18,708 nucleotides of DNA from the NCBI GenBank assembly GCA_030447945.1, contig JAUJNV010000021.1, forward strand, positions 1 through 18,708. Reading direction: 5' to 3'. The notes beneath the pieces are model-generated. The model made no database searches. It was given only the letters and a program-made list of their open reading frames with translations, and was not told where the DNA came from. This stretch comes from Fimbriimonas sp. GTDB taxonomy: Bacteria; Armatimonadota; Fimbriimonadia; Fimbriimonadales; Fimbriimonadaceae. The translations under genes and the position numbers were made by a program. Below, piece by piece: positions 109-18,708 of this stretch. Each line of letters starts with the position of its first letter. Position 1 is the first letter of the stretch.

Positions 109-2694
109 TCACTTCGGAGCCCGCACCGCGTCGTCCTCTTGCTCAAACGTCCCGTAGTAGTACGGCGTCTGCGAATCGAACTCGCCTGCGCACGTGTCGA
201 CCATCTTGAACACAGGCTGGACCTTCTGGCGCTCTATCTGTACCGCCGCCTCCAGAAGAAAACCGCTTTGTCCGGGCTGCCCACCCCGAACATGCCCCAG
301 AACACTACTCATCGTAGGATCGACGTTCAGGGCTTTCCACTTCGCACTGAACGCTGGGTTCGAGAAGAGTTCTTCGAGCGCTGAGGTATCCGCCTCCCGA
401 AACACTCGCGACTCCTCGGGACTGAAGAGGACGTCCGCCGCTCGAAGACCACGCGCAACATCGGAGGCGAGTGCCACCGGCACCTGAAGCAGATCAGCGA
501 TCGTGCGTGATGGATAGCCCAAAAGGAAGGCCTGGGCGACTAGGCCCTTCAATGACTCGCTCGTCCCCACCTCTTCCCGCGCGCGCACCAGCCTCTGTTC
601 CATGTCCACGAGGCACTGAATCCGCCGCAAGAACCAAGGGTCGACCCGCGAGATGCGGTTGACCTCCTCCACGCTCCACCCCCGCCGCAGTCCTTCCGCC
701 AGCGCCCAAAGGCGCTCGTCCGTCGGCTTCCGAATGGCCTCGCGCAGCTCGTCGTCCGCCATCCCCGTGGCATGGCCGTCCCGGCCATGAGTCCCCGGCG
801 CGTCCCGCGCCGTCCCGTCCTCCCTCTCCCTCTCCCCGTCCCCCACCCAAGCCCAATCCCCCAACCGAGCCTGCGCCGGGTTGGCCAAGATGTAAGCCCG
901 GCTCCGCTCATAGTCCCGCTCGTCGCGGACCATGTGGTCGTAATACTCCTCCTGCCACAGCTCTCCGGAACGGCCAAGAGCTTTGTTGATCTCCTTGGCG
1001 GTGTACGACTTCCAACTGTGGAGGATGCCAGCGAGACCATGCTCGCCCTGCGGCTCGACCAAAGCGTGAACGTGGTTCGGCATCACGCACCAGGCGTGCA
1101 GGCGGTAGCGCTGGCCGTCGAAGTGGCCCAAGGCGTCGGCGGCTATCTGGGCCGCTCGAGGGTCGCGAAGCGCGCACGAACCCGCGCCGGAGTCGAGGTA
1201 TCGCTCTAAGCGCTCCGAGTCGAGCCGCTTTCGCTCGTGCTCCTCTTTGGGCGAGAGGGGACGGTAGCCTCGCCGCTCGATCTCCGCGAGGCGCTCGCGC
1301 TCCTCGGCCCACTCCCGCAGCGTCGCCTGCGGTATGGCGTCGGCGAGGCGGAAGGTGACGGAATAGATCGCGCCTTCGCGGGTCCAGTGGGGGAGGTAGG
1401 CGCCTTGGCGTCTTTTTATTTCGGGGGAGACGAGCGGGACGCTCGGGGGACGCACGGGCGGGACGCCCGTGCCACGTTGGAATTTGGGGTGGCGGAGGTC
1501 TTTTTGCTTGAGCTCCAGGCCGCGGATGGCCTTCATGAAGGCGGCCTCAAAGGAGCGATCGATCGCCATCACCTCACCCGTAGCCTTCATCTGGGTGAAG
1601 AGGCTGCGGTCGCCGGTGGCGAACTTGTCGAAGGGCCAACGGGGGATCTTCACCACGCAGTAGTCCAGCGCGGGCTCGAAGCAGGCTCTGGTGGTGCCGG
1701 TTACGGCGTTTTCGATCTGATCCAGCGTCTTCCCCACCGCGATCTTCGCGGCGACGCGGGCGATGGGGTAGCCCGTAGCCTTGGAGGCCAGAGCCGAGGA
1801 GCGGGAGACGCGGGGGTTGACCTCGATGATGTAATAGTCGAAGCTGTCGGGGTTCACCGCGAGCTGCACGTTGCAGCCGCCCTCGATGCCCAGGGCCTGG
1901 ATGATCTTCAGACTCGCCGTGCGGAGCATGTGGTACTCCAGGTCGCTGAGGGTCTGGCTGGGGGCGACGACGATGGAGTCGCCCGTGTGGACGCCCATCG
2001 GGTCGAGGTTTTCCATGTTGCAGACGGTGATGCAGTTCCCCGCCTTGTCCCGCATGACCTCGTATTCGACCTCCTTCCACCCGAGAAGCGAGCGCTCGAC
2101 CATGATCTGTGAGCGCAGGGAGAGCATCAGGCCCTTCTGCCCGATCTCCCACAGCTCCTCGCGCGTGTTCGCGACGCCACCGCCCGTGCCGCCGAGGGTG
2201 TAGGCCGGCCGGATGATGCAAGGGTAAGGGACCACGTCCAGGATGCCCTGCAACTCCGACTCGGAGGTGACGATCCAGCTTTCGGGCACCGGCTCACGGA
2301 TCTCACGCATAAGCGACCGGAAGCTCTCGCGGTCCTCCGCCTTCTTGATCGCGGAGAGGGGCGTGCCGAGCACGCGGAGGCCGTACTTCTCCAGGATGCC
2401 GAGATCGGCGAGCTGGGTGGCGAGGTTGAGGCCCGTCTGCCCGCCGAGGGTGGGCAGGAGCGCGTCAGGGCGCTCGCGGGCGATCACGCGCTCCAGGAAC
2501 TCCGGGGTGAGCGGCTCGATGTAGAGGGCGTCCGACACCTCGGGGTCGGTCATGATCGTGGCGGGGTTGGAATTCACCAGCACGACCTCGTGCCCCTCCT
2601 CCCGCAGGCTCTTGCACGCCTGCGTTCCCGCGTAATCGAACTCCGCGGCCTGACCGATGACGATGGGGCCGGAGCCGATGACCAGAACCTTCAT
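109..2694 (-). CDS. carB: Carbamoyl-phosphate synthase large subunit, N-terminal half (CarB1-like), with in-frame RAYT transposase insertion
   Basis: 861 codons from ATG at 2694, chosen because [20 protein letters not shown] is the canonical CarB N-terminus. Residues 1 to about 406 are the carboxyphosphate ATP-grasp domain ([32 protein letters not shown]). Residues about 645-861 are the oligomerisation domain, ending at the VDTCAGEF...TPYYYGTFE segment. Between them, residues about 407-644 are a REP-associated tyrosine transposase that keeps the frame open. The protein then stops, exactly where E. coli CarB (about 1,070 aa) would begin its second, carbamoyl-phosphate synthetase half. Split carB genes are known in Aquifex and Methanocaldococcus, so the second half may lie elsewhere; loss is the alternative. 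The subunit would use glutamine-derived ammonia from CarA plus bicarbonate and ATP. TACATT lies 6 nt before the ATG. Whether the fusion protein works is unknown. Confidence 0.9.
767..796 (+). repeat. REP-like hairpin, left end of the RAYT element
   Basis: GTGG at 767-770 is followed by a perfect 8-bp stem, CATGGCCG (771-778) with CGGCCATG (782-789), around a TCC loop, then AGTCCCC. It has the same layout as the element's other end and as the solo copy near 11057. In RAYT systems such palindromes are the transposase's recognition sites. Confidence 0.8.
1446..1475 (-). repeat. REP-like hairpin, right end of the RAYT element (inverted)
   Basis: Read on the minus strand: GTGG, then a perfect 8-bp stem, CACGGGCG with CGCCCGTG, around a TCC loop, then CGTCCCC. 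On the plus strand the stem arms are 1453-1460 and 1464-1471 and extend one further base pair outward. Orientation is opposite to the copy at 767-796, giving the head-to-head pair expected for an excisable unit. Confidence 0.8.
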
Positions 2695-2700
2695 TCTAAG

Positions 2701-2706
2701 AATGTA
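2701..2706 (-). promoter_or_regulatory. Candidate -10 box (TACATT) for a leaderless carB transcript
   Basis: TACATT on the minus strand ends 6 nt before the carB ATG, a spacing that would put the transcript start at or near the start codon. No convincing -35 box or Shine-Dalgarno sequence is seen. It is one of three such boxes in the window. Confidence 0.35.
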
Positions 2707-2723
2707 GTGTGACGCATCGGGCG

Positions 2724-2729
2724 TAGAAT
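2724..2729 (+). promoter_or_regulatory. Candidate -10 box (TAGAAT) for the DUF433/DUF5615 pair
   Basis: TAGAAT ends 7 nt before the ATG at 2737, within the 42-nt gap between the divergent carB and antitoxin starts. There is no Shine-Dalgarno sequence, which suggests leaderless initiation. Confidence 0.3.
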
Positions 2730-2736
2730 GGACCCT

Positions 2737-2958
2737 ATGGACTGGCGGCAATACATCGTGAGCACACCGGATACTCGATCCGGTAAGCCGCGGATCGACG
2801 GCACGCGCATCACCGTCCAAGACATCCTGGAATACCTCGGCGGTGGGATGGCGGTCGAAGAGTTGCTTGAGGATTTTCCCCAGTTACGCCGCGAGCAGAT
2901 TTAGGCTTGCATAGCCTTCGCGGCTGACCGAGAAAGGCTCTTTATGACCAATGGATGA
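2737..2958 (+). pseudogene. DUF433-family antitoxin with internal TAG stop
   Basis: The first 55 codons read as a DUF433 protein: a start, '[20 protein letters not shown]', then [16 protein letters not shown]. This is the small helix-turn-helix antitoxin partner of PIN-like DUF5615 toxins. A TAG at 2902-2904 interrupts it, but the same frame continues with ACIAFAADRERLF, the conserved family C-terminus, and ends at TGA 2956-2958. That TGA overlaps the next gene's ATG by 4 nt. The frame is otherwise intact, so a single substitution explains the break; a glutamine, lysine or similar codon would restore about 73 residues. A truncated 55-aa antitoxin is an alternative. It is divergent from carB. 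Confidence 0.8.
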
Positions 2959-3305
2959 GGCTGCTCATCGACGAGAACCTCTCGTATCGCCTCATTCCCC
3001 CTCTACCGGAGCTTTTCGATGAGGTGCTCACGTAGCGTCTGGGCTTGGCCGCAACGGCCGACGAGCGTATTTGGAGGGCGGCAATCGAGCAGGATTTTGC
3101 CATCTTGACGAAGGACAACGACTTCGCAGATCGCGCACTGATCGAGGGACCGCCGCCGAAGGTCATCCGTCTCCGGATCAGAAACGGCCACTGGCGGCGA
3201 GCACTTACAGTCGTAGAAGCAAACCTGGATCTTATTCGCCGTTTTCTCCTGGACGATGAACCGGCATGTCTGATTCTTACGGCCTTCCCGAACGATCCGA
3301 TCTGA
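2955..3305 (+). pseudogene. DUF5615 PIN-like toxin with internal TAG stop
   Basis: The frame starts MRLLIDENLSYRLIPPLPEL, with the N-terminal aspartate of PIN-like nucleases (residue 6), and continues after a TAG at 3033-3035 (codon 27) with RLGLAATADERIWRAA and DFAILTKDNDFADRA, the family's second acidic motif. About 115 residues in total, the normal length for this family of presumed RNase toxins. The ATGA overlap with the upstream DUF433 frame is typical of toxin-antitoxin operons. The stop falls before most of the nuclease core, so the product as written would be inactive. Both members of the pair carrying exactly one TAG and no frameshift is unusual. Confidence 0.8.
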
Positions 3306-3316
3306 TGTCCCGAAAG

Positions 3317-3664
3317 TCACCGCACGTAGTGGATCTCCACGATACGCCCGCCCGCGAAGAGCAGCAGGCACGAGAGCTTCGGCTTGCTTAGCGCGATCTC
3401 CCGCGCCTCTTCGAACGTCTTGCTCACGATCTCGCCGCTCAGGCCGGCGAGCAGGCCCATGTAGGTCGTCGCGTCGTCGGGGCTGGGGAAGCACGCGAGG
3501 CCGTCCACGTTCTGCTCGGCCGGCAGTGTGACGTTGTTCGCGGCGTACTTCCCCTCGGCGGGGGAGATGAGATACAGTCGGTCGGGGAATCCCCCGAAGC
3601 CGCCGAGCATCTCCTCCTCGAGGACGATGCCGCCGGGGCGGTCGAGGATGTTGGGGCCTGCCAT
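3317..3664 (-). CDS. Hypothetical protein ('gene A') with MAGPNILDRPGGI N-terminus
   Basis: A 115-aa protein that I do not recognise. It begins MAGPNILDRPGGIVLEEEML and continues with GGFGGFPDRLYLISPAEGKY, a central FPSPDDATTYMGLL segment and the C-terminus KLSCLLLFAGGRIVEIHYVR. No signal peptide or clear membrane helix. The ATG at 3664 is preferred over an in-frame ATG 18 nt upstream (3682), because the two partial copies of this 5' end (at 4585 and 5264) begin at exactly this codon. Its first 66 nt recur at 4520-4585 with about 8 differences and, more diverged, at 5223-5264. It is probably an old neighbour of carA, since both flanks of the island's cargo derive from carA and this gene. Confidence 0.7.
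   Translation of the reverse strand: MAGPNILDRPGGIVLEEEMLGGFGGFPDRLYLISPAEGKYAANNVTLPAEQNVDGLACFPSPDDATTYMGLLAGLSGEIVSKTFEEAREIALSKPKLSCLLLFAGGRIVEIHYVR
3599..3664 (-). repeat. Gene-A 5'-end repeat, copy A (within the full-length gene)
   Basis: 66 nt encoding MAGPNILDRPGGIVLEEEML and two glycines. It matches 4520-4585 at about 58 of 66 positions in the same orientation. Together these copies bracket the plus-strand nucleotidyltransferase module as direct repeats. Confidence 0.8.
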
Positions 3665-3706
3665 CGTGAGGAGTTTACGCATCTCGGCGCGTCAGAATGA
3701 AAGGCG

Positions 3707-3940
3707 ATGGACAAGGAGGCGGTGCTCCGGTGGAAGGCGGGATGGGAAGAGGTCGAGCGAGTACGTATCGAGGAGATGCGGGCGCTGACCATGGAGGACC
3801 GCTGGCGAGAGATGCGCGCGATCGGGCGCCGCGCGAACCTGTACGGCTTCTACCAGGCGCGGCCAGACATCGACGAGGCGCTCGCCGAACGTTGGGAAAA
3901 GATTCGCAAAGCTCATGGGATCGAGCGAGCCGCGGCCTGA
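3707..3940 (+). CDS. Small charged protein, partner of the nucleotidyltransferase
   Basis: 77 aa from ATG 3707, beginning MDKEAVLRWKAGWEEVER and containing LTMEDRWREMRAIGRRANLY. It is rich in Arg, Glu and Trp and predicted helical, with no membrane segment. I do not recognise a named family. Its 26-nt overlap with the following nucleotidyltransferase frame marks a translationally coupled pair, the usual arrangement of a small antitoxin or partner with an NTase toxin; that role is inferred from context only. The module is on the opposite strand to the surrounding carA-linked genes, which supports separate acquisition. Confidence 0.75.
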   Translation: MDKEAVLRWKAGWEEVERVRIEEMRALTMEDRWREMRAIGRRANLYGFYQARPDIDEALAERWEKIRKAHGIERAAA

Positions 3941-4499
3941 CCTCGAGGAGCTCGACGACGCGGGCGCTGCGATCGCGAGAGTGATCGAGGGGCTCGGCGG
4001 CAACGGGGTGATTATCGGGGGATTCGCGGTATCGCTCATCGCTCGGCCCCGTTTCACGCAGGACGTCGACGCTATGGTGCTTCAAGGCGAGCGGACCATC
4101 GCCCAGTTAATCATCGCCTTTGGGGAGGAAGATATTCGCCCCCGCGTGTCCGATCCGGTAGAGTTCGCGCGTCGTACGCGCATGCTCCTGTTGCGACACG
4201 AGCCGAGCGGGGTCAGCGCGGACATCGCGCTTGGCGCAACCCCTTTCGAGGAGGAGATGGTTCGCCGATCCACGCAGGTGGACCGGGGCGGCCAGAGCAT
4301 CCGCCTTCCGTCCCCCGAAGACCTCATCGTGATGAAGGCCGTCGCAGGACGAGACCAAGACTGGCCGGATATCCGGGCAATCGTCGAGGCGCGTCCAAAC
4401 TTAGATCGTCGCCGTGTCATGCACTGGGTCCGGCAGTACGCCGAAGTGCTGGAACTTCCCGACATGGCCGATACCGTCGAGCGATTGCTGCGGCCCTGA
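3915..4499 (+). CDS. Nucleotidyltransferase-fold protein (AbiEii/MNT-like, probable TA toxin)
   Basis: 194 aa. Residues about 30-60 contain GVIIGGFAVSLIARPRFTQD followed by VDAMV, the Pol-beta-type nucleotidyltransferase signature (GG ... T-x-DVD) with two metal-binding aspartates. A third acidic position is probably in SADIALGATPFEEEMVRRS. The C-terminal part (LPSPEDLIVMKAVAGRDQDW, then PDIRAIVEARPNLDRRRVMHW) matches the helical region of the family. Such enzymes transfer nucleotides to tRNA or to partner proteins in type II/IV toxin-antitoxin or abortive-infection systems; the target here cannot be inferred. It overlaps the 77-aa gene upstream and ends 2 nt from the convergent 27-aa ORF. 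The pair is bracketed by direct repeats of the gene-A 5' end. Confidence 0.85.
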   Translation: MGSSEPRPDLEELDDAGAAIARVIEGLGGNGVIIGGFAVSLIARPRFTQDVDAMVLQGERTIAQLIIAFGEEDIRPRVSDPVEFARRTRMLLLRHEPSGVSADIALGATPFEEEMVRRSTQVDRGGQSIRLPSPEDLIVMKAVAGRDQDWPDIRAIVEARPNLDRRRVMHWVRQYAEVLELPDMADTVERLLRP

Positions 4500-5264: not shown

Positions 5265-5521
5265 TGGACCTCCCGAATTTTCTTCTGAAGAATGTAGCCG
5301 CCGCAAACGCCTAGCAGTGCCAGAAGAGCGCCTGTTCCAAGCAGGTAAGGCGCGAGGCCGAGATTGCCAACATCGATTCCGGTGCGAGCGCGAGGGCTTG
5401 CCGGACCCGCCGGCAAGTACGACATGAACGCGACGAGGGCGAGGATCGCGCCCGATCCTAAACATGCCGCAAAGAGGCGTCGTAAACGCTCATATCGAGC
5501 AAGACGATGAGCACACTTCAT
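5261..5521 (-). CDS. Small two-helix membrane protein
   Basis: 86 aa starting MKCAHRLARYERLRRLFAAC from an ATG at 5521 that overlaps the carA stop by 4 nt (ATGA). Two hydrophobic stretches, about residues 17-38 (LGSGAILALVAFMSYL) and about 57-78 (APYLLGTGALLALLGVCGGY), are separated by a short polar loop. The N-terminus is strongly basic and the C-terminus reads ILQKKIREVQ. By the positive-inside rule both ends would be cytoplasmic. No family recognised. A longer ORF starting at 5581 exists, but it would run into carA and lacks support. Coupling to carA means it is probably co-transcribed with it, though nothing links it to pyrimidine synthesis. Confidence 0.7.
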   Translation of the reverse strand: MKCAHRLARYERLRRLFAACLGSGAILALVAFMSYLPAGPASPRARTGIDVGNLGLAPYLLGTGALLALLGVCGGYILQKKIREVQ

Positions 5522-5597
5522 CGCCCCGCCGCCCTCCGCATCTGCTCCACGAAGTCGCTGAAATACGGCCGCGAGTCCCACGGACCCGGTGCCGCCT
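5518..5597 (-). repeat. carA 3' end, parent copy of the duplicated tail
   Basis: This is the real carA terminus, coding AAPGPWDSRPYFSDFVEQMR and the stop. It is the partner of the copy at 5148-5222. The two direct copies bracket the 86-aa membrane gene and gene-A repeat C, an attL/attR-like arrangement. Confidence 0.75.
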
Positions 5598-6630
5598 CGG
5601 GGTGGTACTGGATGCTCGCCGCGTCCAGGTCCGGCACGTGGATGCCCTCCACGGTGCCGTCGTTGAGGTTCAACTGGGTGACCTCAGCGCCCGTCCCCTT
5701 AAGCGAGTCGGGGGAGACGGCGTAGCCGTGGTTCTGCGAGGTGATCGTGACCTTGCCCGTCGCGAGGTCCTGCACCGGGTGGTTCGCGCCGCGGTGGCCA
5801 AACTTAAGCTTGAAGGTCTCGCCGCCCACGGCCTGGCAGAGGATCTGGTTGCCCAGGCAGATGCCGAACATCGGCTTCTTGCCGAGGAGCCCGCGCACGG
5901 TCTCCACCACCGGACCGAGCCGGGCGGGGTCCCCGGGTCCCGGCGAGAGGAGGATGCCGTCGGGGTTCCACGCGAGGACTTCCTCAGCGGTGGTGGTCGC
6001 GGGAAGAACGATCGGGCGGCAGCCGGCGCCCCAGAAGCGGCGCAGGATGTTGAACTTCAGCCCGCAGTCGAGCACCGCCAGGCGCAGCCGCCCGGGCTCG
6101 TCCGGCTCTTCCACAGTCTCCTTGCCGGAGGGGCCCCACTTATACGGCGCCTTCGTGCTGACTCCGAGCACGAAGTCGGTCTCGTCGTACCCCTGGGCCT
6201 CCTGCAGCACGCGCCGGCCTTCCGCGAGATCGTCGGCGATCACGCCCATCGTGACGCCTCCGGTGCGGATGCGCTTGGTGATGGCGCGCGTGTCGAGCCC
6301 CTGGATGCCCACCATGCCTCTCTCCTTCATGAGCGTGTCGACGGACTTCGTCGCCCGCCAGTTGGAGGGGATCTCGCACGCTTCGCGCACGATCAGGCCG
6401 GTCGGCTGGAGGCGGTCCGACTCGAAATCGTCCTCGTTGATCCCGTAATTGCCGATCAGCGGATAAGTGAGGAGGACGATCTGGCCGGCGTAGCTCGGAT
6501 CGCTCAGGATCTCCTGGTAGCCCGTCATGCCCGTGTTGAACACGACTTCTCCAACCGTGTGGCCAGCGGCCCCGAGGGGCTTCCCTTCGAATACGGCGCC
6601 GTCGCCCAAGAGGAGGTAGCGGGGGGTCAA
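5518..6630 (-). CDS. carA: Carbamoyl-phosphate synthase small (glutaminase) subunit
   Basis: CarA hydrolyses glutamine and channels ammonia to CarB. The N-terminal domain shows RYLLLGDGAVFEGKPLGAAG and EVVFNTGMTGYQEILSDPSY. The C-terminal class I amidotransferase domain shows GICLGNQILCQAVGG (nucleophile Cys), FGHRGANHPV, SQNHGYAV and QYHPEAAPGP (catalytic His and Glu). The frame is open to a TTG at 6711 inside a tandem heptamer. The TTG at 6630 gives 370 aa, the usual CarA length, and begins right at the conserved LTPRYLLL segment, with GGAGG about 16 nt upstream; I prefer it, without certainty. The stop overlaps the ATG of the 86-aa gene. The normal partner, carB, is about 2.8 kb downstream beyond the accessory island. 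Confidence 0.93.
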   Translation of the reverse strand: MTPRYLLLGDGAVFEGKPLGAAGHTVGEVVFNTGMTGYQEILSDPSYAGQIVLLTYPLIGNYGINEDDFESDRLQPTGLIVREACEIPSNWRATKSVDTLMKERGMVGIQGLDTRAITKRIRTGGVTMGVIADDLAEGRRVLQEAQGYDETDFVLGVSTKAPYKWGPSGKETVEEPDEPGRLRLAVLDCGLKFNILRRFWGAGCRPIVLPATTTAEEVLAWNPDGILLSPGPGDPARLGPVVETVRGLLGKKPMFGICLGNQILCQAVGGETFKLKFGHRGANHPVQDLATGKVTITSQNHGYAVSPDSLKGTGAEVTQLNLNDGTVEGIHVPDLDAASIQYHPEAAPGPWDSRPYFSDFVEQMRRAAGR

Positions 6631-6705
6631 AGGAGGAAAAAGCGTACCTCCAGGGGCAGCCTCGGCGCAAAGGACGGGCGGGAGGAGGACAGGGATGGGC
6701 TTGTA

Positions 6706-6733
6706 CCTCAACCCTCAACCCTCAACCCTCAAC
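6706..6733. repeat. Tandem heptamer, four perfect copies of CCTCAAC
   Basis: Four uninterrupted copies of CCTCAAC (GTTGAGG on the minus strand), followed by a partial unit. The GH26 gene's stop codon lies inside the array, and the array supplies the far-upstream TTG of carA. It is the kind of short tandem repeat that varies in copy number between strains. Confidence 0.9.
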
Positions 6734-13853: not shown

Positions 13854-16553
13854 ATGAATGACCTTCCGACCGGCACGGTCACGTTCCTGATGACGGACGT
13901 GGAGGGCAGCACACGGAAGTGGGCCGAGGACCCGGAGCGGATGCGCGCCTCGCTGGAGCGCCACGACCGGCTCGCGCAGCGAGTCTGCGATCGCCATCAC
14001 GGAACGCTGGTGAAGCAGAGGGGCGAGGGAGACAGCCTTTTCATGGTGTTCCGCCGCTGCCAAGACGCGGCCTTGGCCGCCACCGAGCTGCATCAGGGTC
14101 TGCGGGAGGACGGCGAGGAGGGCATGCTTCGCCTGTCCGTGCGCGCCGCCATCCACGTCGGCGAGACGCAACTGCGGGACGAGGACTACTACGGGCCGGT
14201 CATCAACCGGTGCGCGCGGCTGCGCGGGATCGGACACGCCGGGCAGACGCTCGTTTCCGAGGCGGTGGCGCAGATCCTACGGGACGAGCCGCCGACTGGT
14301 CTGATCTTGCGAGATCTGGGGTTCCACCGCCTGAAGGACCTGCTGCGGGCGGAGCGTGTCTACAGCCTTCAGAAGGAGACGGAGGCCAAGGATTTCCCGC
14401 CTCTGCGCTCATTGAACACGCAGGTGGGCGCACTGCCCGTGCAGCTCACCAGTCTCATCGGGCGCGAGAAGGAAGTAGCCGACATCCTCGGCCTGATCGA
14501 GTCGCACCGCCTCGTTACGCTTACGGGATCGGGAGGGGCGGGCAAGACGCGCCTGGCCCTGCAAGCCGCCGTGGAGGCGGCGGAGAGCCACCCGGACGGG
14601 CTGTTCTTCATCGACTTGGTGCCGGTGGCCCCGAACGAACCGATGCCCGAGGTGATCGTTCGCTCCTTGAAGATCAGCGTGGAGCCGGGGCAGGACGCGG
14701 TCCGGGCCCTCCAGACGATGTTCGGCGGCTCCTCGCCGTTGCTCGTCCTGGACAACTGCGAGCACGTCATCGAAGACGCCGCGGAAACGTGCGAGGATCT
14801 GTTGACCTCGTGTCCTGGCCTACGCATTCTCGCCACCAGCCGGGAGAGTCTACGGCTGCCCGGCGAAGCGACTTATCTCGTGCCTCCTCTTCGGTTTCCG
14901 TCGGTCCCCTGCCGGCTGCCCCCCGATGAGATCCTTGGGTATGAGGCGGTGGCCCTGTTCTGTGAGCGCGCGGCTTTGCGATCCCACGGGTTCGCCTTGG
15001 ACGGGAACAACGCCGAGGCGGTGGCGGAGATCTGCTGGCTGCTGGACGGCATACCGCTCGCCATCGAGCAAGCGGCCTCGAACGTTGGCTTCCTGACTCC
15101 CGGACAGATTCTTGAGGGACTGCGCGAGGGGCTCAACAGCCTTCGCGCGACCAGCCGAGGAGGCGAGCGACGCCACAAGACCCTGGAGCTTACGAACGAG
15201 TGGAGCTTCTCCCTCCTCGCAGAGGAGGAGCGCGCGCTCTTCGCACGCCTCGGTGTCTTCGCCGGTGGCTGGACCCTATCGGCCGCCGGAGAAGTTTGCG
15301 CCGGAGACGACATCCGCGCCGGTGCGGTGCCCGGTCTGTTGGGCGGGCTGGTTGCCAAGTCCCTCGTCACCGCGAACGACGAGGGACGTGGGGACAAGCG
15401 GTACCGCTATCTGCACGCGGTCAGAGAGTTCGCGCTGAAGAAGCTCGGGAGCGAGGACGCGCCCGTACGCGCCCGCCACTTCGCTTGGTGCCTGGCGGTA
15501 GCTCGGCGGGCGGAACCCGAGTTCCTCGGCAAGGACCAAACCGCGTGGCTGGAACGCTTCGACCGCGACTACAGCAACCTGCGTCAGGCCCTCGACTGGG
15601 GCTTGCGCACGCGCCATGGTGGCTTGCTGGATCTGGTCTTCCTCCTCCGCTACTTCTGGCTGTTCCGCAGCGACCTTGCGGAAGGGCGACATTGGGTGGA
15701 GCGCGCGCTCGAGGCTGTCCCGGGCGCGCCGGCCCGGCTTCGGGCTCAGAGCCTGAACCTCCTCGGTGCCCTCATCTACAAGCAGAATCTTCCCGAGCTC
15801 GCAAAGTTGCACCACCAGCACAGCCTGGCGCTCTGGAAGACTCTGGAAGACCCCGGCGGTGAGGCCGACGTCCACAACAACCTCGGTCTCGTCGCCATGC
15901 ATCAGGGAAACGTTGCGGAGGGGCGGGAACACTTTCGCACGAGCCTGTCCATCTACGAATCTCTCGAGCAACCGGGGAAATCAGCTCAGTCGGCTCTCAA
16001 CGTGGCGCTGTGCGAGGAAGAACTGGGCAACTACGCCGAAGCAATGACTCTGATTGAGCAGGCATTGCGGCTTGTGCGGAGGCAGGGCGGCAATCCGTGG
16101 CTCGAAGCGGGGGCTACTCTCTGCCTTGCCAATGTCGCCCGGCAGTTGGGTTCCCAGCGAGAGTGCCTTCAACACCTGGAAGCCGCTCTCATCCTTCAGC
16201 GCGAACTTAGGAACAAGCTGGCGATCTTCGCCGCGCTGACCTTGCTTGCCGAACAGGCCCACGAGAAGGGGAAGAACTTCCAAAGCGCCTGGTTGCTCGG
16301 TGCCGCCGATGGCCTTCGAGAGGCAAGTGGACATGCGCCGAAAGGCACTCATTGGAAGATCCAGCAGGAAGTGTCCCAAGCGGTGGCGGAAGTGCTATCG
16401 ACGGCGGAGATCGAACGGCAACAAGCACTGGGACGGGCTGCTCCCATCGAGGTGGTCATGGAAAACTCCCTAGAGCTACTTCGTACCTTGACACTTGTAG
16501 GAACAAAGAGTAGCATCGCGGGGAGGAACGGTTCCCCAGTAATTCTGTTGTAA
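13854..16553 (+). CDS. Class III adenylate/guanylate cyclase-STAND ATPase-TPR signalling protein (copy 1)
   Basis: 899 aa from ATG 13854; the open frame extends far upstream, but only from here does it read as protein, starting PTGTVTFLMTDVEGSTRKWA. Residues about 8-170 are a class III nucleotide cyclase domain: metal Asp15, KQRGEGDSLFMVF, and the N...R transition-state pair in YYGPVINRCARLRGIGHAGQ. Residues about 205-560 are an NB-ARC/STAND ATPase with Walker A GSGGAGKT (Lys231), Walker B LLVLDNCEHV (Asp300), sensor ILATSRESLRLPGE and GIPLAIEQAA. A winged-helix region and TPR repeats (for example EADVHNNLGLVAMHQGNVAE) fill the C-terminus. No DNA-binding domain of LuxR type is seen. It is presumably a cytosolic switch coupling a signal sensed by the TPRs to cAMP/cGMP output. 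A TACAAT box (13810-13815) lies 38 nt upstream. Divergent from purF. Confidence 0.9.
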   Translation: MNDLPTGTVTFLMTDVEGSTRKWAEDPERMRASLERHDRLAQRVCDRHHGTLVKQRGEGDSLFMVFRRCQDAALAATELHQGLREDGEEGMLRLSVRAAIHVGETQLRDEDYYGPVINRCARLRGIGHAGQTLVSEAVAQILRDEPPTGLILRDLGFHRLKDLLRAERVYSLQKETEAKDFPPLRSLNTQVGALPVQLTSLIGREKEVADILGLIESHRLVTLTGSGGAGKTRLALQAAVEAAESHPDGLFFIDLVPVAPNEPMPEVIVRSLKISVEPGQDAVRALQTMFGGSSPLLVLDNCEHVIEDAAETCEDLLTSCPGLRILATSRESLRLPGEATYLVPPLRFPSVPCRLPPDEILGYEAVALFCERAALRSHGFALDGNNAEAVAEICWLLDGIPLAIEQAASNVGFLTPGQILEGLREGLNSLRATSRGGERRHKTLELTNEWSFSLLAEEERALFARLGVFAGGWTLSAAGEVCAGDDIRAGAVPGLLGGLVAKSLVTANDEGRGDKRYRYLHAVREFALKKLGSEDAPVRARHFAWCLAVARRAEPEFLGKDQTAWLERFDRDYSNLRQALDWGLRTRHGGLLDLVFLLRYFWLFRSDLAEGRHWVERALEAVPGAPARLRAQSLNLLGALIYKQNLPELAKLHHQHSLALWKTLEDPGGEADVHNNLGLVAMHQGNVAEGREHFRTSLSIYESLEQPGKSAQSALNVALCEEELGNYAEAMTLIEQALRLVRRQGGNPWLEAGATLCLANVARQLGSQRECLQHLEAALILQRELRNKLAIFAALTLLAEQAHEKGKNFQSAWLLGAADGLREASGHAPKGTHWKIQQEVSQAVAEVLSTAEIERQQALGRAAPIEVVMENSLELLRTLTLVGTKSSIAGRNGSPVILL

Positions 16554-17661: not shown

Positions 17662-18708
17662 ATGCAAACGCTGCCGACCGGCACGGTCACGTTCCTCATG
17701 ACCGACATCGAGGGGAGCACCCGGCTCTGGGAAGAGCACCCGGAGGCGATGGCGCTCGCGGTCGCGCGGCACGACGCGTTGATCTCGGAGACGGTCGGGG
17801 CGCACCACGGGCGGATTCTAAAGGAGCGGGGGGACGGGGACAGCCACTTTGCGGTCTTCGACCGGGCGAGCGACAGCGTCGCCGCGGCTCTCGAAATCCA
17901 GCGTCTGCTCTTGCACGAGGCGTGGCCGTCCCAGACTCCCCTGAAGGTGCGTGTCGCCCTCCACACGGGGGAGGCCCAGGAGCGGGAAGGGGACTACTAC
18001 GGCCCTGCGGTCAACCGCACGGCTCGACTGCGGTCGATCGCCCATGGGGGGCAGGTGGTGCTCTCGCAAGCGACCGAGACGCTCGTGCGCGACCGACTTC
18101 CCGCCGAAGCCGGCCTCCTTAGCTTGGGGCTGCACCGCCTGAAGGACCTCCTGCGGCACGAGCGGGTGTCGGCGCTGATGCACCCTGCCCTACCGAACGA
18201 CTTCCCTCCCTTGCGTTCTCTGGACTTCGTGGGGCCAAACAACCTGCCGGTGCAGCTCTCGAGCTTTGTCGGGCGCGAGGCTGAGGTGGCGCGTCTGCGG
18301 GGGATTTTAGCGACGACACGGCACGTGACCCTGACGGGTTCGGGAGGGTGCGGCAAGACGCGCCTGGGCCTCCAGGCGGCGGCCGATATGCTGGACGCGA
18401 CGCCGGACGGTGTGTGGCTGGTGGATCTCACGCTCCTCAGCGATCCGGCCGCCGTGCCGGGTGCCGTGTTCTCCACGTTGGGCCTCCCGGACGCGGGAAG
18501 CGCCGATCCGCTGGAACGGTTGTGCGAGCACTGGGGGGACCGAAGCGCCTTGCTGCTGCTGGACAATTGCGAACACGTGGTGGCAGGCGCCGCGAGACTC
18601 GTCGACACCCTTCTGCGCCAATGCCCGGGGATCAAGGTGATGACGACCTCTCGCGAACCGTTGCGGTTGCCGGGGGAGGTCACCTTCCGGGTCCCCCCGC
18701 TGTCGTTC
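17662..18708 (+). CDS. Class III cyclase-STAND ATPase protein (copy 2), cut by the window end
   Basis: 349 codons are visible from ATG 17662, with no stop. The start MQTLPTGTVTFLMTDIEGST matches copy 1 almost exactly, including a run of about 23 identical bases. The cyclase domain shows Asp15, ILKERGDGDSHFAVF and YYGPAVNRTARLRSIAHGGQ. It is followed by LPVQLSSFVGREAEVARLRG, Walker A GSGGCGKT (Lys232), Walker B LLLLDNCEHV and TTSREPLRLPGE. The winged helix and TPR region expected from copy 1 lie beyond the window. Divergence across the domain indicates an old duplication or two family members, not a recent copy. A TACAAT box (17624-17629) lies 32 nt upstream, as in copy 1. No terminator or gene is evident in the 239 nt before it. 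Confidence 0.9.
   Translation, partial: MQTLPTGTVTFLMTDIEGSTRLWEEHPEAMALAVARHDALISETVGAHHGRILKERGDGDSHFAVFDRASDSVAAALEIQRLLLHEAWPSQTPLKVRVALHTGEAQEREGDYYGPAVNRTARLRSIAHGGQVVLSQATETLVRDRLPAEAGLLSLGLHRLKDLLRHERVSALMHPALPNDFPPLRSLDFVGPNNLPVQLSSFVGREAEVARLRGILATTRHVTLTGSGGCGKTRLGLQAAADMLDATPDGVWLVDLTLLSDPAAVPGAVFSTLGLPDAGSADPLERLCEHWGDRSALLLLDNCEHVVAGAARLVDTLLRQCPGIKVMTTSREPLRLPGEVTFRVPPLSF

Follow-up and report, generated by a model that had tools for sequence, protein, structure and literature searches.

A REP-flanked RAYT in frame within a split CarB of Fimbriimonas sp. and its probable residence as a domain of the host enzyme

How and why REP-associated tyrosine transposases (RAYTs; REP, repetitive extragenic palindrome) are maintained is a question raised in PMC6006769 (here and below, literature statements refer to excerpts of the cited papers). 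The window analyzed here, an 18,708-nucleotide stretch of DNA from Fimbriimonas sp. (contig JAUJNV010000021.1), poses this question for an element lodged in an enzyme gene: a RAYT with REP ends lies in frame inside carB1, which encodes the N-terminal half of a split carbamoyl-phosphate synthetase (CPS) large subunit (Table 1). We consider it probable that the insert is a REP-flanked, REPtron-like RAYT resident as a domain of CarB1, where it would ride on host expression and purifying selection. Sequence comparison shows that the insertion site, a linker between domains, is variable: close relatives have nothing inserted there, and in several separate lineages it is occupied.

The first-pass annotation had described an in-frame RAYT with inverted REP ends at this site and its boundaries proved exact. 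The fused open reading frame (ORF) has a predicted mass of 95.9 kDa, and only one of the six frames of the element, the carB frame, is stop-free throughout. Each end of the element carries an outer and an inner hairpin (z -4.6 and -4.0; none of 200 shuffles equal), and the four hairpins with their GTGG...CCAC tags place the RAYT between GT[AG]G-tagged palindromes, as in a REPtron. The REP ends are translated as GTGVPPV... on the left and ...THGRDGHAT on the right. The Y1_Tnp domain (PF01797) was found at residues 529-602 with 35.2 bits against a Pfam cut-off of 23, while the NCBIfam RAYT model NF047646 scored 79.5 bits on the fused protein, with a curated cut-off of 80. The residues that characterize RAYTs are both present, as PNHVH (the histidine-hydrophobic-histidine, HUH, motif) and as YILANP (Y-I-x-x-N-P), and the RAYT 4er8 is the sole solved structure matching by sequence (phmmer, E 4.5e-7). 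An alternative catalytic tyrosine site, SWKSYT, was rejected because both the alignment to 4er8 and the motifs tabulated in PMC6006769 point to Y-I-x-x-N-P; tyrosine loss is scored on this motif throughout. A PHROGs search returned one family, of function not known.

Table 1. Features of the carB1-RAYT locus (window coordinates; residues refer to the fused protein)
Feature	Position	Strand	Source
carB1-RAYT fused ORF, 861 aa, N-terminal half of split CPS large subunit	109..2694	-	ORF, Pfam, NCBIfam
CarB preATP-grasp (D1) and carboxyphosphate ATP-grasp (D2) domains, residues 2-326	1717..2691	-	Pfam
Whole element, 709 bp, GTGG...CCAC, residues about 407-643	767..1475	-	sequence
Left outer REP: GTGG tag (1472-1475) and hairpin with 9-bp stem	1452..1475	-	folding
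Left inner REP hairpin	1431..1445	-	folding
HUH motif HVH, residues 541-543	1066..1074	-	4er8 alignment, pattern
Presumed catalytic Tyr in YILANP, residue 601	892..894	-	4er8 alignment, PMC6006769 motif table
Right inner REP hairpin	796..812	-	folding
Right outer REP: hairpin and CCAC tag (767-770), inverted relative to left REP	767..789	-	folding
CarB oligomerisation domain (D3), residues 652-735	490..741	-	Pfam
carA, small subunit, upstream of carB1	5518..6711	-

The host is a CarB1 of the split type. D1 (residues 2-117), D2 (121-326) and D3 are all present, and the protein stops after D3 as do the relatives L001-L003 (550-569 aa). A separate frame of 546-581 aa (37-38% identity), called CarB2 by eye, occurs in the relatives G001-G003; no separate CarB2 was seen within the 18.7-kb window. 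The insert was predicted to lie at the junction of the carboxyphosphate ATP-grasp and oligomerisation domains, a placement borne out by the Pfam layout and by the linkers of relatives. Among 30 carB1 loci without a RAYT, which are close relatives picked by similarity to the window, 26 have a linker of 20 residues; that of the window measures 257, so the net gain is 237 codons. Since the length of the element is 1 modulo 3, two additional bases relative to the common linker preserve the frame. The other RAYT-free linkers measure 23 (L001 and L109), 28 (L121) and 83 residues (L096). By eye, the L121 linker holds a REP-like scar and that of L096 (from G085) an unrelated insert, 63 residues above the common length and lacking RAYT likeness.

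The same linker is filled elsewhere. A search for CarB homologues with the same insertion, suggested by the first-pass annotation, yielded a RAYT or its remnant in 20 further sequences, or 21 with the window: 13 from the list of long proteins described below, L093-L095, L134 (at a contig edge) and P0242-P0244 (P0241 is L094 again and is counted once). When the fused CarB was searched against 291 genomes of the phylum, the full insert was covered in just three of those listed (G077, G103 and G129), thus a filled linker is rare. In G129 the content of the linker is a Tyr-less remnant. Two unsplit CarBs also contain a RAYT: L141, at a different position, and L160 (G172, ORF 928-3891, minus strand), whose C-terminal half carries other in-frame repeated stretches by eye (e.g., ...TAWERG...VGEGG...).

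Residence is not confined to CarB. When fusion-length proteins were searched with the RAYT part, 488 matched at E <= 1e-3, and the 120 listed were inspected; in 110 of these the RAYT core has 60 or more residues of other sequence on each side. The hosts, named from precomputed Pfam accessions, include valyl-tRNA synthetase (ValRS), CarB, isochorismate synthase, DnaE, MetH, IspG, helicases, alpha-mannosidase and modification enzymes. Of the 120, 29 are labelled ValRS and contain the RAYT internally (e.g., P0009, P0038 and P0052), mostly right before TVATTRPETMLGD, and several of these proteins bear Planctomycetes names; this is a second recurrent site. Another listed protein, P0119, bears the name Fimbriimonas ginsengisoli and has its RAYT within an alcohol dehydrogenase. 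Relatives of the window RAYT within its own length range number 4189, and most of the 120 listed have ends of their own, with a Met start in 107 and an end no more than 30 residues past the core in 96. A REP-coded peptide is found to the right of the core in 108/120 long vs. 22/120 short proteins listed, and to its left in 85/120 vs. 53/120.

When 113 genomes from the class were searched in six frames, 50 RAYT matches (E <= 1e-15) were obtained in 28 genomes. Ten of the top 14 lie in frame within a host ORF, compared with none of the remaining 36 (Fisher p 9.7e-8), which were judged by their loci or else by open frames of up to 300 aa; the only longer frame among them, in G136, reaches 393 aa and shows no host by eye. 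The query was itself a fused RAYT, thus the result says that residence clusters among its kin. The ten hosts are CarB in four cases (G103, G077, G079 and G172), mannosidase in two, an alcohol dehydrogenase and MetH, with the last two being C-terminal fusions, to TetR and PrmC. Among the top 14 there are also free RAYTs, with L167-L169 looking intergenic by eye and L166 lying near a contig end. The L095 remnant is too diverged for this search.

The residents usually retain the key catalytic residues. By pattern, the HUH motif is kept in 132 of 132 fused RAYTs and the tyrosine motif in 130 (a count that excludes P0242-P0244), the two without being L095 and P0002. A set of 65 columns is conserved across 119 short RAYTs, and the window matches 60 of them. 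In 12 chosen pairs of fused RAYTs (six CarB, one mannosidase and five ValRS), changes avoid the conserved columns in all 12 (p 0.002 to 1e-9).

Some genomes with an embedded RAYT also carry REP copies. Tagged-hairpin REPs number 14 in G077, 20 in G103, 8 in G078, 60 in G172 and 166 in G083, compared with 1, 0 and 0 in G001-G003 and 0-2 in backward-read controls; none were found in G129, the genome with the Tyr-less remnant. Both RAYT matches of G077, its only two at E <= 1e-15, are embedded, therefore the REPs of this genome plausibly owe their movement to an embedded RAYT or to a RAYT that has since disappeared.

A mechanism can be proposed from these observations. The locus would be translated as one CarB1-RAYT protein of ~96 kDa in which the RAYT folds independently on two disordered REP-encoded tethers while CarB stays working, and the embedded RAYT would still be able to bind and cut single-stranded REPs in trans. 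The structure prediction that had been suggested for the fused protein (AlphaFold2, 42 alignment rows) gave a mean predicted local distance difference test score (pLDDT) of 81 and a predicted template modelling score of 0.69, with the RAYT core and D3 ordered and pLDDT <50 across most of the REP-coded stretches (residues 408-423, 432-435 and 625-643). The model agrees with a tethered extra domain. In a Foldseek search the top 17 matches are carbamoyl-phosphate synthetases, and the best 50 consist of these together with biotin-carboxylase-type ATP-grasp enzymes, with no match to the RAYT part. Tolerance of the insert by the host as an extra domain, an early suggestion, is thus supported by comparison, through the further filled linkers and the predicted order. 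Residence in a housekeeping gene would provide the RAYT with steady expression and would also protect it, since any frameshift, stop or imprecise deletion would ruin the host enzyme. At times one linker occupant would give way to another, and some lineages would lose the REP ends and the catalytic tyrosine while the remainder persists as a fossil CarB domain.

Several observations weigh against this reading. With 4189 short relatives, gene residence is the minority state. A hairpin pattern run over the window recovers the left REP only, at chance level. G079 has an embedded RAYT and no REPs by the tagged-hairpin pattern. The conserved columns may reflect folding rather than catalysis. The L095 insert has decayed, with 28 of the 65 conserved columns kept. 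On the RAYT tree, one CarB clade is not rejected (approximately unbiased test, p-AU 0.09), thus there may have been one old insertion followed by losses and recombination.

This last history, a single old CarB insertion with many losses and with RAYT alleles swapped by recombination, is the strongest competitor to repeated insertion, and we regard it as possible though on balance somewhat doubtful. In addition to the unrejected clade, it is favored by the grouping of RAYTs by host gene (42 changes for 13 labels vs. 113 in shuffles; the large RAYT tree left out short proteins above P0175 except P0001-P0120). However, the CarB host tree (43 rows, insert omitted) rejects a single fused clade (p-AU 5e-8) and requires seven changes for the fused state, at least three of them forced by starred branches, although change counts on this tree cannot separate gain from loss. 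This tree includes 18 of the 21 filled-linker CarBs and leaves off L004, L120, P0045, P0062, L106, L109 and L118; an earlier quick tree of 47 rows gave six changes, and L134 is in neither. The RAYT trees similarly need six or seven changes for the CarB RAYTs. Further points against a single insertion are the plain length of most empty linkers and the variation of insert boundaries among CarBs.

Individual pairs point to mixed histories. P0048 and P0050 have CarBs that are 96.2% identical and RAYTs that are 54% identical, with differing right boundaries, indicating that the linker occupant was replaced. In P0043/P0027 and in P0006/P0034, host and RAYT seem to have been inherited together, and the RAYT has diverged more quickly than the ATP-grasp half. 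We read these cases as residence, inheritance and turnover occurring together, the turnover arising by reinsertion or by recombination of CarB alleles. A further pair, P0042/P0043, was considered as evidence of transfer since a RAYT is common to hosts of 85% identity, and was dropped because nearly all host differences fall in one D3 stretch. The first 400 host residues of this pair are identical and the one D3 stretch is very different, which suggests recombination or an assembly chimera.

A second alternative is that the RAYT is a neutral passenger, role-less in a tolerant linker and in frame only because out-of-frame insertions are lethal. The unrelated insert of L096, the short scar of L121 and the decay of L095 are what such a linker could accumulate, but changes that avoid conserved RAYT columns in every chosen pair and the near-universal retention of HUH and tyrosine argue against it, as do the P0043/P0027 RAYTs, which are 84% identical and gap-free. 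We consider it unlikely.

Returning to residence under selection, a few CarBs suggest how it may end. L095 and P0242-P0244 contain RAYT-derived linker inserts in which the catalytic tyrosine is replaced, the HUH motif is retained and the frame is open, and no recognisable REP-coded ends were found in these inserts. P0242-P0244 match the RAYT model at E 1e-14 to 2.5e-13 and L095 weakly, at 1.5e-4. Among P0242-P0244 the insert diverges about as fast as D3, with identities of 68.6-83.0% in the insert, 66.5-84.9% in D3 and 96-98% in the ATP-grasp half. We read the inserts of these four proteins as probable permanent, non-catalytic CarB domains.

Inteins with homing endonucleases are the familiar case of an in-frame nuclease domain in conserved host genes, found at the same site across hosts. 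The CarB1 insert resembles them in carrying an in-frame nuclease domain at a site reused in different hosts; it differs in having no detected splicing module, in occupying a variable linker rather than a conserved site and in being presumably retained in the protein. Intein-like excision from the protein or RNA, or separate production of the RAYT from an internal start, is very improbable: no intein family appeared among the Pfam and NCBIfam matches of the fused protein (E <= 0.001), Rfam gave zero matches in the window at gathering thresholds, and the earliest in-frame ATG of the insert is at the HUH motif (residue 538), although in-frame alternative starts do precede this motif (GTG 414, TTG 522 and GTG 537). 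Expression of the transposase solely within CarB, as envisaged in the first-pass annotation, is plausible. Least credible of the alternatives is a pseudogene or assembly join, with carB1 dead or chimeric and an intact copy elsewhere, since many separate contigs show the same architecture with RAYTs that differ, no stop interrupts the frame on either side, the gene order purF-phosphoglycerate mutase-carA-carB1 is common to the window and L001, and a single CarB1 was found in each of G077, G103 and G129 (filled linkers; these assemblies may be incomplete).

The CarB1 RAYT shares with published RAYT/TnpA-REP proteins and REPtrons the HUH and single-tyrosine core and the inverted, GTRG-tagged hairpins of the REP ends (PMC6006769, PMC8266576, PMC8049555). 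The GTAG tag contributes to cleavage-site choice, and a GTGG variant is cleaved at CC in one system (PMC8266576). RAYTs are described as single-copy, vertically inherited, domesticated transposases (PMC8049555), and those in the excerpts are free-standing genes, whereas the CarB1 RAYT is read within a host enzyme with no stop at either REP. Short in-frame REPs in genes, like the Rickettsia palindromic elements cited with them (PMC3733652), are also palindromic elements read through within protein genes; those inserts are 20-82 residues of REP without a transposase, whereas the CarB1 insert carries one. REP DNA is likewise translated in frame inside tnpAREP genes of subclass 2.4, which is ascribed to flexible regions (PMC6006769); there the transposase gene receives REPs, whereas in CarB1 the host gene receives the transposase and REPs together. 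Unexpectedly long TnpAY1 proteins were set aside as gene fusions or annotation errors (PMC6006769). No published description of whole RAYTs in frame in host enzymes was found in open-licence titles and abstract starts, and supplements may list some. What appears to be new here is therefore a RAYT with an in-gene lifestyle, short in-frame REPs having been published already. The first-pass annotation had called this lifestyle unusual, which holds relative to published RAYTs; it recurs, however, and is not unique to the CarB locus.

More broadly, and only tentatively, these comparisons of sequences may define a RAYT subfamily that is gene-resident without start or stop codons of its own, forms a domain of essential enzymes, mobilises REPs from that position, re-enters the same linker in new hosts in a homing-like manner without splicing and is occasionally domesticated as a permanent non-catalytic domain; we put the chance of this whole picture a little short of even. 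Residence in essential enzymes would be a direct and testable answer to how RAYTs are maintained, for at least one subfamily, with the host gene supplying expression and purging disabling mutations. It may also illustrate how a mobile element can turn into a new protein domain, since the apparent stages (empty linker, intact element and Tyr-less remnant) are all seen in one gene. For annotation, long "transposases" and overlong ValRS, CarB or DnaE proteins may be genuine fusions.

Other features of the window were observed in passing. A DUF433-DUF5615 pair, presumably of toxin-antitoxin type, lies just upstream of carB1 at 2737-3305 (plus strand; Pfam on stop-free pieces), and both genes have an in-frame TAG and look to be decaying. 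A nucleotidyltransferase matching the DUF6036 and AbiEii models is encoded at 3915-4499 (plus strand). Two plus-strand ORFs that are alike by eye, both starting MTDxEGSTR..., lie at 13965-16553 and 17662-18708; the second extends past the window edge, and the first contains AAA and TPR domains.
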